Positions 7,490 through 58,808 of a DNA stretch of 64,000 nt are shown one piece after another. The stretch comes from Slackia sp. ZJ119 (GTDB lineage: Bacteria; Actinomycetota; Coriobacteriia; Coriobacteriales; Eggerthellaceae): assembly GCF_011039175.1 (NCBI RefSeq), contig NZ_JAAKEN010000003.1:1-64000 (forward strand). The letters run 5' to 3'. The notes under the pieces were generated by a model. That model was not told the DNA's origin, did not search any database, and worked only from the letters and a program-made list of their open reading frames with translations. Each line of letters opens with the position of its first letter. The first letter of the stretch is position 1. The translations under genes and the position numbers were made by a program.

Positions 7490-7924
7490 ATGCTCGGCAG
7501 TGCGCGGGTGATGATCGTCGGCTGCGGGGACTTCGGTTCGACGCTTGCGAGTGCGCTTTCTCGCCAAGGCTTCGCCGTCGTCGCCATAGACATGCGCGAG
7601 GACGCGTTCGACCTGCTCGACGGCGACTTCGACGGAGAGGCCGTCACCGGGGACGGAGGCATCGTGTCGGTTCTGGAAGAGTGCGGGATCGCGCACGCCT
7701 CCTATCTCGTTGCCGCAACAGGCTGCGAGATGACGAATTTCTTCATTGCAGAGGTGGCGAGCGAGCTGTACGGCGTCGAGCACGTCCTGCCGCGCGTCGA
7801 GAGCACGGCGCTCGTCAGGCTTCTCGACGACTTGAACGCCAGTCCGATATGTCCGCGCCTCATCTGCGTGGACGAGTTCTACCGGCTCTCGGGCCTTGAT
7901 GCGGGAAGCGTCGTGCGGTCATGA
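7490..7924 (+). CDS. TrkA-like potassium channel regulatory protein (RCK-N only)
   Basis: 144 aa. A Rossmann nucleotide-binding fold begins with MIVGCGDFGSTLA, a GxGxxG-type motif, followed by VVAID with an acidic residue after the second strand. This is the RCK-N domain of TrkA/KtrA proteins, which gate K+ uptake in response to NAD(H) or ATP. The RCK-C domain is absent. I chose the ATG at 7490, preceded by GAGAGG; the frame extends upstream to 7448 without a ribosome site. The stop overlaps the ATG of a second TrkA-like gene (ATGA), so the two halves are translationally coupled and probably assemble with TrkH. Confidence 0.88.
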   Translation: MLGSARVMIVGCGDFGSTLASALSRQGFAVVAIDMREDAFDLLDGDFDGEAVTGDGGIVSVLEECGIAHASYLVAATGCEMTNFFIAEVASELYGVEHVLPRVESTALVRLLDDLNASPICPRLICVDEFYRLSGLDAGSVVRS

Positions 7925-8439
7925 GGGTGGCCGTCGTCGGGGGACGCTCCCGCGCAGACTACCTTGTCGGAGTGCTGGCAGGCGAGGGCCATGAGGTCGT
8001 CGCGATCAACAGCGACCGCGCGTACTGCGAATACCTGTCGAACAGGCACGACGTCCGCATTTTCTGCGGAGACGGGACCCGGGGCCGCGTCCTGGAAGAC
8101 GCAGACGTCGACGGCTTCGACGTCGTGGTGGCGCTGACCGGCCGCGATGTGGACAACTTCGCGATATGCCAGCTGGCAAAGCACTGCTTCGACGTGCCTT
8201 TGCAGCTGTGCACGGTTGCGAACCCGGAAAACATCGTCGTGTTCAGGCGCCTGGGCGTAAGCGCCGCAATCAGCGGAACGTACGCCTTGGCAAGAGCCAT
8301 CCAAGACAGCATGAACGAGAGCGCTGCCGCATCGCAGCCGCGGCTTGGGCTGGGCGGCGGGCTTTTCGAGAACATGTCCGACGATCCGCCGTGGCGGGGC
8401 GCTGTCGGAGGCTTCTGGCGCAAGCTCGGAAAGGGCTGA
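7921..8439 (+). CDS. Second TrkA-like potassium regulatory protein
   Basis: 172 aa. The N-terminal VAVVGGRSRADYLVGVL and VVAINSD again outline a Rossmann RCK-N fold, here with GGRSR instead of a canonical GxGxxG, which may alter nucleotide binding. VVALTGRDVDN and FRRLGV are typical later TrkA blocks. A ~35-residue Gly/Trp tail replaces RCK-C. It overlaps the preceding gene by 4 bp and lies 3 bp before trkH. Paired single-RCK proteins (CeoB/CeoC style) are known beside Trk systems in actinobacteria. Confidence 0.87.
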   Translation: MRVAVVGGRSRADYLVGVLAGEGHEVVAINSDRAYCEYLSNRHDVRIFCGDGTRGRVLEDADVDGFDVVVALTGRDVDNFAICQLAKHCFDVPLQLCTVANPENIVVFRRLGVSAAISGTYALARAIQDSMNESAAASQPRLGLGGGLFENMSDDPPWRGAVGGFWRKLGKG

Positions 8440-8442
8440 GAC

Positions 8443-9939
8443 ATGTCAGCCCAGCTCAAAGAAGCGAACCGCCGCGCAACGCAAGCGATGGCCAACGCTG
8501 TCGGCACCTCGGCGATCATCATCGGCGCCGTCGAGCTCGTGCCGGTCTGCATCCTTGTCTGGAGCCCGGAGGACACGCGCCTCGCTCCCAGCTTCATCTT
8601 CCCCGCGCTCTTTCTCATGGCGGCGGGATACGTGCTGCGCTTCGCCAAGGGGGACAAGAGCGCAGGCTATATGCTCGAGCGCAGGGACGCGGCCGCCTGC
8701 ATGCTGGCCGTCTGGCTGGCGGCGATCGTCGCCTACGCGCTGCCCTTCGTCCTCGCCCATGAGCTCGACCCCGTCCAAGCCGTTTTCGAGGCGACGAGCG
8801 GCCTGACGACGACGGGGCTGAGCGTGATGGACCCCGACGAGTGCCCGCGCATGCTTCTGCTCCACAGAAGCCTGATGCACTACCTGGGCGGAGTCGGCCT
8901 CGTGCTCGTTTTGACCTGCATGGTGAGCCGCAGCGGCGGGCTCGGCATGTACAACGTCGAGGGCCACGTCGACCGCCTTTTGCCCGGCACGGCTCGAACG
9001 GCCCGCACCATCTTGGCAATCTATTCGGGCATCATCGCGCTTGGAGCCGTTGCGTACCGAATCCTGGGCATGTCGGCGTTCGACGCGATCAACACCTCGA
9101 TTTCCGCCGTCTCGACAGGCGGGTTCTCGACGCACGTGGAAAGCATCGCTTATTTCGACAGCCGCCCCGTCGAGGCCGTCAGCGCAGTCCTGATGCTTGC
9201 GGGAGCCACGAACTTCCTGCTGCTGTTCCTGCTTCTTCGCGGGAAGGTCGAAAGCTTCGCGCACCACATCGAGACGCGGGTGCTCTTCGGCGTCGTTGCG
9301 GTCGCGAGCGTTGCAATCGCTGCGATTCTCGTGGCGTCGGGTTGTTGCACCGACGCGGCCGATGCGCTGTGGACGGCGTTCTTCCAAACGGTGTCCGCCA
9401 TCACCTCGACCGGGTTCCAGATCGTCCCGTCTTTCGCGGCGCTTCCGTCCGGCATCCTCCTTGTGCTCGTTTCGCTCATGCTCGCCGGGTCGATGGCCGG
9501 CTCGACCTCGGGCGGGATCAAGCTCTACCGCATAGCTGTCTCGTTTTCGGGACTTCTTTGGTCGCTCCAAGAGCGCTACGGGACCAAACATCGCATCTAC
9601 GGCAGGAAGATCAACCGCTTCGGGAAACGTGTGGTCTGCACGGAGACGGAGGTGAGGGAGGCGGCGACGTTCGCGGCAACCTATATCCTGGTGTTCGCGA
9701 TCGGAAGCTTCGCCTTTGCGCTCTGCGGCGCCTCGTTCCAGGAAGCCGTGTTCGACTTCGCTTCATGCTTGGGCAACGCCGGCATCGGTGTCGGGTTTCT
9801 CGGCGCGGGGTCGGGGCCGGTCGAGCTCGGCATCGGCGCGTTCGGGATGCTTCTGGGACGGCTCGAGATCGTGATGGCGTTCATTGGCCTCGCCGCTTTG
9901 CTGGAGCGTGTGAAAAGAAGGGTTGCGCATGGACGTTGA
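8443..9939 (+). CDS. trkH: TrkH-family potassium transporter, membrane subunit
   Basis: 498 aa polytopic membrane protein. Four pore-loop repeats can be read in order: TSGLTTTGLS, ISAVSTGGFS, VSAITSTGFQ and ASCLGNAGIG. Each centres on the Gly of the K+ selectivity filter, as in TrkH/KtrB. It moves K+ inward and is gated by the two TrkA-like proteins encoded just upstream. The ATG at 8443 follows the preceding stop by 3 bp, and its 3' end overlaps the sensor kinase gene. Confidence 0.93.
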   Translation: MSAQLKEANRRATQAMANAVGTSAIIIGAVELVPVCILVWSPEDTRLAPSFIFPALFLMAAGYVLRFAKGDKSAGYMLERRDAAACMLAVWLAAIVAYALPFVLAHELDPVQAVFEATSGLTTTGLSVMDPDECPRMLLLHRSLMHYLGGVGLVLVLTCMVSRSGGLGMYNVEGHVDRLLPGTARTARTILAIYSGIIALGAVAYRILGMSAFDAINTSISAVSTGGFSTHVESIAYFDSRPVEAVSAVLMLAGATNFLLLFLLLRGKVESFAHHIETRVLFGVVAVASVAIAAILVASGCCTDAADALWTAFFQTVSAITSTGFQIVPSFAALPSGILLVLVSLMLAGSMAGSTSGGIKLYRIAVSFSGLLWSLQERYGTKHRIYGRKINRFGKRVVCTETEVREAATFAATYILVFAIGSFAFALCGASFQEAVFDFASCLGNAGIGVGFLGAGSGPVELGIGAFGMLLGRLEIVMAFIGLAALLERVKRRVAHGR

Positions 9940-56721: not shown

Positions 56722-56748
56722 TGACTGAATTCGTCAGTATTATCCTAG
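56722..56748 (-). repeat. Diverged dispersed repeat at the murJ stop codon
   Basis: Minus strand: CTAGGATAATACTGACGAAT then TCAGTCA. TAG is the murJ stop. It shares the TGAC..AATT..GTCAGT core with 60964-60980. Confidence 0.65.
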
Positions 56749-58808
56749 CCGCGTCCGAGCCTGCCGGATACCTTGTGCGCCAGCGTGGACAGGAACGCCG
56801 CTTCGGGCACGCGGAACAAAAGCGCCAGCCCGAACGTCACGACCAGGCTCGCCGCTCCGCCGACGACGACGTATCCGAGCGCTTGGACGATGGACCCGGA
56901 AAGCGGGGCGAGGAAGGCCTCGAGCGCCCACAGCACGCCCGCGCCCGCCGCCGCGCCCGCCGCGCCGAACAAAAGCCCCAGCACGAAGGCCCGCACGATG
57001 CTCGACAGGCCGAACGGTCCCAGCTTCGCCCGCAAGAAGAAGAACAGGCACACGTCGGCCACCACGTAGAACGCCACCTCGGCCACGGCGATGATCTCGA
57101 TGGGGAACAACCCGGTGTTGCTTGCGCCGAGCATGGTGATGCCGATCTGCGCGGCGCCGGCCAAAAAGTTAAACCCGGCAAACACCCACATGTGCCGCAG
57201 GCTGGAAAAGATCTTCTGCAGGTAGGTGTTGACCGCATACACCGGCAGCGCGAAGGCGAGGACGGCCAAATACCCGGCGATGGCCTGCACCGATTCCATC
57301 GTGAAGGCGCCGGCGTGGTACAGCGTCACGAGCGGCAGCGAAAACACCATGAGGTAGAGCGAGAACGGCAGCATGAAGAACAGGATCTGGTTCGTGCCGC
57401 CCACCACGCCGCGCTTCACGCCTTCGACGTTGCCTGCGGCCTGCATGTCGGCCAGCTCGGTGAACATAGCCGTGGTGATGGGCACGGCCAAAAACGCGTA
57501 GGGCAGCGTGAACCACAGCCGCGCGTAGGCCAGAATGGACGGCCCGTTGTCGGCGAAGCTGTAGGACGCGGCGTTTTGCACGGACACGACGGCGAACGAG
57601 CACAGCATGACGACCACGGCCGGCACTCCGATGCCGAGCGTCTCTTTCAGCGCCGGGTCGCGCAGGTTGATGCGCGGGCGCAGCGCGATGCCGTTTCTTT
57701 TGAGCGCGGGAATCTGGATGGCCATTTGCACGAACACGCCGAGCGGGTTGCCGATGGCGATGATGAGCAGCGCCGCCTGCGGATGCTCGGGCGAAACGAC
57801 TGCGAAGGCCGCGAACGTGACGATGACGATGATGTTGTTGAACACCGGCGCAATGGACGACCACAAATAGTCGCGGTTGGCGTTGAGCAGGCCCGACACG
57901 ATGGCGCTCGCGCCGTAGAACACGATCTGCACGGCGAAGAACTGGAAGAAGAACACCGAGGTGTCCATGAGGCTTTGGTCCGAATAGAAGCTTTGCGTGT
58001 AGATGACCGCTGCCGGAAACGCGATGCAGAGCAAAGACACGATGCCGAGCAGCACGACCACGATCGTGAGCAGGTTCGACGCGTACTCGTTCGACGCGTC
58101 GCGTCCGAGCTTGCGCTTCACCGACAGATACACCGGCAAAAACGTCGTGACGATCATGCCGCCGGCCACCAGTTCGTAGAGCTGGTTGGGCAGGTTGTTC
58201 GCCACCTGGTAGGAACTGGAAAGCAGCGTGGAGCCCAGCGCGAAGGCCATGGCCCACGTGCGGGCGAACCCGGTGATGCGCGAGATGATGACGCACAGGC
58301 TGATGAGGCCGGCCGACCCGCTCACCTCGGCGACAGACCCGCTCGGCTGGGCTTCTTCGGCCGCGGCTCCGGCCGGTTTCGTTTCGGCTTTGGCGTCTGC
58401 GGTGCGGTCGACGCCCATGTGGCGCCCGTCGAGGCGGATGGCGCCGGTGCGTCCGGGAGCGGCCCAGGACATGGTCTCGCGTGACGAGCGCCGCCGACGC
58501 GGGTCGGGGGTGGACGGCTCGAAGGGATCGTGCGGCCTTGTGCAGTCGATGCCGGCGTGGCGGCCGCCCACGAAGATCTCGCCGGTTTCCGAAGGGTCTT
58601 GGCTGCGGTACACGTGCCCGCGCTCCACGTTGCGGGCGACGCCTTCCTCGTCGTGCAGGTCCTGGGGCACGGGCACGACGGACTGGGCCACGGCGGCGGC
58701 CACGGCGGTGCGGTCGATGCCGGCGTGGCGGCCGCCCACCTGGATTTCTGCCGTGGTGAGGGGTTTGGTTGTTCTGATATGTTGAGCTCGTGCGAGCTTG
58801 TCGGTCAT
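56745..58808 (-). CDS. murJ: Lipid II flippase MurJ with repeat-bearing N-terminal extension
   Basis: 687 aa. Residues ~165-680 are a MurJ/MviN transporter with about fourteen helices; conserved stretches include RITGFARTWAMA, NNLPNQLYELVAGG and the loop NANRDYLWSS. It flips lipid II to the outer face of the membrane. The first ~160 residues are a hydrophilic, presumably cytoplasmic extension with three copies of one motif: EIQVGGRHAGIDRT (21-34), EIFVGGRHAGIDCT (77-90) and AIRLDGRHMGVDRT (123-136). Typical MurJ is ~510 aa. AAAGG lies nine bases before the ATG at 58808. Confidence 0.93.
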   Translation of the reverse strand: MTDKLARAQHIRTTKPLTTAEIQVGGRHAGIDRTAVAAAVAQSVVPVPQDLHDEEGVARNVERGHVYRSQDPSETGEIFVGGRHAGIDCTRPHDPFEPSTPDPRRRRSSRETMSWAAPGRTGAIRLDGRHMGVDRTADAKAETKPAGAAAEEAQPSGSVAEVSGSAGLISLCVIISRITGFARTWAMAFALGSTLLSSSYQVANNLPNQLYELVAGGMIVTTFLPVYLSVKRKLGRDASNEYASNLLTIVVVLLGIVSLLCIAFPAAVIYTQSFYSDQSLMDTSVFFFQFFAVQIVFYGASAIVSGLLNANRDYLWSSIAPVFNNIIVIVTFAAFAVVSPEHPQAALLIIAIGNPLGVFVQMAIQIPALKRNGIALRPRINLRDPALKETLGIGVPAVVVMLCSFAVVSVQNAASYSFADNGPSILAYARLWFTLPYAFLAVPITTAMFTELADMQAAGNVEGVKRGVVGGTNQILFFMLPFSLYLMVFSLPLVTLYHAGAFTMESVQAIAGYLAVLAFALPVYAVNTYLQKIFSSLRHMWVFAGFNFLAGAAQIGITMLGASNTGLFPIEIIAVAEVAFYVVADVCLFFFLRAKLGPFGLSSIVRAFVLGLLFGAAGAAAGAGVLWALEAFLAPLSGSIVQALGYVVVGGAASLVVTFGLALLFRVPEAAFLSTLAHKVSGRLGRG

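Follow-up and report, generated by a model that had tools for sequence, protein, structure and literature searches.

The murJ locus and its N-terminal tail

The window, a stretch of 64,000 nucleotides from Slackia sp. ZJ119, carries a murJ open reading frame, the features of which are listed in Table 1. The match of the core to the MurJ family was over the Pfam cut-off (190.9 bits vs 27.4, E 4.1e-56). Six distinct solved MurJ sequences also matched the open reading frame, with alignments beginning at residues 141–167. Lipid II flipping by the window MurJ is, on this homology, a putative function.

Table 1. Features of murJ in the window
Feature	Position	Strand	Remarks
murJ open reading frame	56745..58808	minus	687 aa, stop codon included; ATG start
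MurJ core per Pfam	56946..58250	minus	Pfam match, residues 187-621
N-terminal tail	58320..58808	minus	about residues 1-163; predicted disordered
N-terminal signature MTDKLARAQHIR	58773..58808	minus	residues 1-12; MxDKLxRAxHxR in consensus of alignment A2
Repeat 1, PLTTAEIQVGGRHAGIDRT	58707..58763	minus	residues 16-34; T-box Thr19, H-box Thr34
Stretch after repeat 1, AVAAAVAQSVVP	58671..58706	minus	residues 35-46; same in L001-L008
Repeat 2, PSETGEIFVGGRHAGIDCT	58539..58595	minus	residues 72-90; T-box Thr75, H-box Thr90
Stretch after repeat 2, DPFEPSTPDPR	58497..58529	minus	residues 94-104; DPFEP[QS]TPDP[RH] in L001-L008
Repeat 3, PGRTGAIRLDGRHMGVDRT	58401..58457	minus	residues 118-136; T-box Thr121, H-box Thr136

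The preliminary description of this DNA had placed an extension before the flippase core, and about 160 residues indeed precede the Pfam match. AlphaFold2, supplied with a shallow alignment of 25 homologues, gave pLDDT values below 50 at residues 1–53, 59–102 and 104–167; the core scored higher over most of its length. Given the topology of MurJ, the tail is expected on the cytoplasmic side. At the other end of the protein, the predicted structure showed core helices up to residue 687, and a Pfam scan of the window MurJ gave MurJ only, with no pseudokinase domain C-terminal to the core.

The tail-bearing relatives begin at the same start as the window MurJ and have the N-terminal signature MxDKLxRAxH in common. 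Alignment A2 (25 rows) has this signature in its consensus, and such signatures served to choose most of its starts. An in-frame stop was found within 20 codons before the ATG in 6 of the 13 relatives checked. From the common signature and these stops, the ATG at 58808 looks used. The preliminary description had weighed orthologues that lack the extension together with an unused start; many MurJ proteins of the family do lack the extension, whereas the start appears to be a real one.

The repeat unit and its conservation

The three GRHxGxDxT repeats reported earlier were present and ended at residues 34, 90 and 136. The 14-residue motif then defined proved to cover the latter part of a longer unit and to leave out a conserved Thr, which lies 15 residues ahead of the final Thr of the motif. 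The full unit spans about 19 residues and consists of a T-box, PxxT[SGA]x[IL]x[VIL], followed by an H-box, G[RK]HxGxD[RK]T. The T-boxes of the window read TTAEIQV, ETGEIFV and RTGAIRL.

To describe the unit, 35 distinct 27-residue units from the window and the tails of relatives were collected around the pattern [GSRAV][RKS]H[AGMTVR]Gx[DRE][RKLC][TVSA]. This pattern fixed the His and the second Gly, restricted four other places, and left the upstream part free. The T-box showed Pro in 30, Gly in 27 and Thr in 31 of the 35 units. All 31 units with the Thr carried Ile or Leu at +3, and their +5 residue was Ile, Val or Leu. Ser never occupied the position of the Thr, which suits FHA domains.

The H-box showed Gly in 28/35 and Arg or Lys in 29/35. 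The Asp was present in 35/35, where the pattern permitted D, R or E, and the next Arg or Lys in 33/35. The last place, where T, V, S or A was permitted, held Thr in 33 units and Ser in 2. Four of the 35 units had the H-box but not the T-box Thr (L016, L026, L017 and the second unit of L009). Judged from these sequences, the T-box and the H-box are separable halves. Alignment A1 was built from 29 of the 35 units, leaving out these four and two near-duplicates; the 'invariant' T-box Thr in A1 is therefore partly a matter of choice.

The uniformity of the last Thr invites the reading that the phospho-acceptor is this second Thr, in GxD[RK]T (residues 34, 90 and 136), with the T-box merely positioning the kinase. 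An Arg or Lys precedes it in 33 units. Against this, the residues that follow it vary, with no common class of residue at +3 in the 35 units, unlike those after the T-box Thr, and no such Thr unit occurs in the tails of the sister families. We consider this reading improbable. The fixed hydrophobic residues at +3 and +5 make the T-box Thr (19, 75 and 121) the likelier phospho-acceptor, as far as sequence can indicate.

The pattern T..[IL].[ILV] was found 47 times in the 33 family tails with a recognized start signature, as compared with a mean of 2.1 after shuffling, a comparison uncorrected for relatedness.

At the DNA level, the repeats of the window had been described as different, and selection on the protein as likely for that reason. 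The difference proved to be a partial one. The three copies were 63–72% identical in DNA; copies 1 and 2 had an exact run of 27 bases in common, and of the 14 codons at which these two encode the same residue, 10 were identical. Selection on the boxes between close relatives was clear. The dN of the boxes was lower than that of the linkers in all eight pairs: 0.033/0.103 (box/linker) for L004/L008, 0.090/0.156 for L002/L007, 0.012/0.119 for L003/L005, 0.025/0.108 for L016/L026, 0.067/0.330 for L020/L023, 0.099/0.312 for L018/L020 (with only 10 box codons), 0.142/0.191 for L001/L004 and 0.072/0.177 for L004/L006. The core dN was 0.027–0.132 in five of these pairs. The box dN/dS was 0.033/0.607 (L004/L008), 0.025/1.247 (L016/L026) and 0.067/1.06 (L020/L023). 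Box dS ranged from 0.24 to saturated, and the weakest pair was L002/L007, with a box dN/dS of about 0.38.

Such selection was not clear in comparisons with the window itself, where the boxes were hardly better kept than the linkers. The identities of box and linker were 55/49% with L001, 51/49% with L003, 61/49% with L004 and 46/50% with L005. The corresponding dN values were 0.430/0.507, 0.507/0.579, 0.398/0.527 and 0.601/0.504, so that the box dN exceeded the linker dN against L005; the core dN was 0.167–0.213. These are pairwise alignments of divergent tails, which may slip. They count against box constraint and lessen our confidence in a kinase and FHA function of the tail.

The weak constraint in these comparisons, the 27 identical bases and the absence of the tail from many MurJ proteins of the family would fit a tail of neutral low-complexity sequence, or an unused ATG at 58808 with untranslated repeats. 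The low box dN/dS between close relatives speaks against this, as do the common N-terminal signature and the downstream stretches, which repeats 1 and 2 each retain as their own across L001–L008. It is the least credible of the readings considered here, with a very small probability.

Distribution of the repeat and of related motifs

A profile of 27 positions made from A1 matched the genome (2.84 Mb) at only three places, with E values of 3e-14 to 4e-12. All three are the murJ copies, and the next-best matches had E values of 0.48 and 0.91. The proposed check for other proteins of the genome carrying the full motif thus turned up none. A loose DNA pattern for GRH[AG] was too common to be used (1553 matches vs 534 in the reversed control).

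The same profile matched 21 genomes of a 60-genome sample of the family at E <= 0.1; the family was taken to be Eggerthellaceae on the basis of named relatives (28 loci). At E <= 1e-6 it matched 17 of the 60 genomes, and by their coordinates all of these matches adjoin the MurJ core. G006 (E 0.001) was the eighteenth genome with a match beside MurJ. Five weak matches lay away from MurJ (G011, G013, G017, G022 and G029; E 0.01–0.09).

The frames upstream of MurJ were compared in 60 rows (59 loci and the window), with G036 entered twice and G025 having no MurJ N-terminus. The 36 rows whose MurJ core was 55% or more identical to that of the window were termed closer, and the other 24 distant. A strict pattern of the full repeat was found in 14/36 closer rows vs 0/24 distant ones; it misses GAHAG and GGHAG forms (L104, L105 and L117). 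A looser pattern found the repeat in 17/36 closer rows. The H-box occurred in 17/36 vs 0/24, and the bare [GPR][RK]H in 24/36 vs 4/24. Some closer relatives, such as L111, L123 and L129, had short tails without repeats, and a genome of the same genus (L171) had two units. The repeat tail is therefore a lineage trait of part of the family and is not universal to MurJ. A search of one open library found no title or abstract on MurJ tails in Coriobacteria.

Three loci of the sample were unusual. At L098 (G042:C71), MurJ is 37% identical to the window core, and the upstream frame holds GRHAAP, GRHARP and GRHGRHAA, then many AAHAAKDAA-like repeats. At L132 (G003:C1, near 3325000), the frame before MurJ holds FFFFKQKTAYGIGVRPVGSERCIRA, which resembles an artefact known from sequencing adapters; the assembly of the tail region may be faulty at this locus. 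The G036 bin contains two MurJ cores (L081 and L118, which are 41% and 65% identical to that of the window), from either paralogues or a mixed bin.

The full repeat was not found when the MurJ tails of 13 genomes from two other families of the order were read by eye. A different motif, [DE]ETxx[FIL], was present in 8 of these 13 sister tails, in up to three copies, as in RPDETSVFLDAAL, RPDETAVFIAAAQ, APDETTAFLISAG and RPDETAQFALADA. One site had Ser in place of Thr (DESAQF, L176), and some tails had further sites of the GPGSTGNL or ESTGVI type. A DNA pattern for P-D-E-T-x-x-F gave 14 matches in seven sister genomes, 11 of them at murJ, and the reversed control gave 4. The pattern [DE]ET.[AVSQ]F occurred 13 times vs a mean of 0.02 after shuffling, in nine tails picked from the 13 (L173, L178, L180 and L184 were left out) and with relatedness uncorrected. 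The bare [GPR][RK]H was found in 10/13 sister tails (GRHFK, GKHFK, QPKHMR and others).

Members of the class outside the order (36 genomes, two of them without a MurJ match) showed neither the full repeat, nor the H-box, nor [DE]ETxx[FIL] in any of the 30 tails read. Across the phylum, 30 loci included one long tail with TQYL, TTQF and TMNL (L185, from a 9.2 Mb genome), which by itself is not significant.

The distribution of the histidine motif bears on a reading of constitutive docking that needs no phosphorylation. The H-box and a beta-strand-like T-box flank would bind a fixed partner in elongation or division, and the several copies would add avidity. The unit varies least at its His, Gly and Asp (His and Gly being set by the collecting pattern), the H-box stands alone in some tails, and the bare motif recurs in closer rows and sister tails alike. 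Such docking leaves unexplained the strict Thr with fixed hydrophobic residues at +3 and +5, and also the ETxxF motifs of the sister families. We regard it as rather unlikely.

A candidate phospho-dependent docking arm

In mycobacteria, a kinase and an FHA protein have already been described as controlling MurJ. There, PknB phosphorylates the pseudokinase tail of MviN (MurJ), to which the FHA domain of FhaA then binds, with a drop in peptidoglycan synthesis as the presumed result (PMC12599244 and PMC6180346). A later proposal has FhaA promoting synthesis (PMC11898655). The Slackia genome resembles this system in having a MurJ with an extra region and in encoding FhaA and PknB. It differs in that the region is N-terminal, predicted to be disordered and made up of repeats, with putative phosphorylation, whereas the mycobacterial one is a folded C-terminal pseudokinase. 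The preliminary description had likewise set the two apart.

FHA domains bind phosphothreonine and read the +3 residue, and kinase sites show a preference at +5. The T-boxes were taken as candidate kinase sites and FHA docking points by analogy with MviN–FhaA and GarA/OdhI. GarA and OdhI are phosphorylated in a conserved N-terminal ETTS motif (PMC8546545). They are FHA proteins that regulate metabolism, with a Thr having a hydrophobic residue at or near +3 (ETTSVF). The tail of the window MurJ has no ETTSVF-like site; the sister tails, with DETSVF-like sites, come nearer to it. The T-box of the family reads PxxTSEIxV and is joined to the H-box. A third comparison is TssL of the Agrobacterium type VI secretion system, a membrane protein in which phospho-Thr14, close to the N-terminal end, recruits Fha (PMC3953482). 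This is a single site in an unrelated protein of another system, and it lacks a hydrophobic +3.

Candidate partners are encoded together at one locus of the genome (L139): FhaA (FhaA_N and FHA domains), a second, small FHA protein whose N-terminus is hydrophobic, a PP2C phosphatase, an FtsW–PBP fusion, and a PknB with three PASTA stretches. A third FHA protein, with a weak zinc-ribbon match, lies outside this cluster at L140. Kinase-domain matches in the genome number six, so the kinase need not be PknB. FHA domains occurred in 60/60 family genomes, with or without tails, which made their co-occurrence with the tail uninformative.

Our preferred reading is that the tail is a multi-site FHA docking arm phosphorylated by a kinase, a counterpart of the mycobacterial MviN–FhaA switch with another build. 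We hold it tentatively, at slightly less than an even chance. The tail would act as a disordered regulatory arm. On sensing wall precursors, a Ser/Thr kinase of the membrane would phosphorylate Thr 19, 75 and 121; the PASTA kinase PknB is the most likely candidate. Each phosphorylated T-box would bind one FHA domain, with FhaA the most likely partner, and a single MurJ could in this way gather as many as three FHA proteins. Lipid II flipping might thereby be lowered, or placed at sites of growth, and the PP2C phosphatase would undo the phosphorylation. The H-box may be a second docking surface for a further partner, or may extend the contact with the kinase or the FHA domain.

Counted for the docking arm were the genes of the genome for a PASTA kinase, PP2C and FhaA, with a Thr followed by a hydrophobic +3 in a predicted-disordered part of MurJ. 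The sister-tail motifs were also counted for it; RPDETSVFLDAAL, for example, closely resembles SDEVTVETTSVFRADFL, the ETTS site at which GarA/OdhI are phosphorylated (PMC8546545). Counted against it was the H-box, which varies no more than the T-box does, occurs without the T-box Thr, and is left unexplained by this reading. The Ser in the sister-tail site DESAQF was also counted against it. A +3 residue is no sure sign of an FHA ligand, as the TssL ligand DLPpTVVEI has no hydrophobic residue there; the same paper names pT+3 as the FHA recognition site (PMC3953482). No position reached significance among PknB-dependent sites in PMC7164672.

A docking or phosphorylation site coupling flipping to signaling had been proposed earlier. 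This idea is favored by the disordered tail, the boxes kept between close relatives, the PknB/PP2C/FhaA cluster and the kinase-type motifs of the sister tails, with the other Thr now the likelier acceptor.

The non-phosphorylated form of CwlM binds the linker of mycobacterial MurJ (PMC6180346). With this precedent, the tail could instead dock a wall-synthesis regulator, CwlM-like or other, that changes partner when it is itself phosphorylated. The site in mycobacteria lies on the C-terminal side of the core, and we consider such docking highly improbable in the window MurJ.

A broader form of the docking-arm reading would cover the order. A kinase would control lipid II flipping in Coriobacteriales by way of a multivalent phospho-tail on MurJ, with several FHA-binding T-boxes that in one family are fused to a new histidine box binding a second partner. 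The tail would be an independent, modular counterpart of the MviN pseudokinase tail. This we find possible but doubtful. If true, gut Actinomycetota would offer a compact case with defined threonines and candidate partners, a new architectural variant of MurJ control and a hint at how wall growth may be controlled in this family of gut bacteria. Control of the flippase by kinase and FHA protein would then have arisen from dissimilar parts in separate lineages.

Two further features of the PknB/FhaA cluster were observed. The FtsW–PBP fusion is a 926-aa open reading frame (L139:4744-7524, on contig C23 of G000), with an FtsW/RodA domain at residues 89–416 and a penicillin-binding transpeptidase domain at 599–920. 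The linker of FhaA (SHTIVIPPAGA) and the juxtamembrane part of PknB (AVTTVIPPAGG), encoded at L139:1950-3023 and 7587-9740, have T-x-V-I-P-P-A-G in common, again a Thr with Ile at +3.
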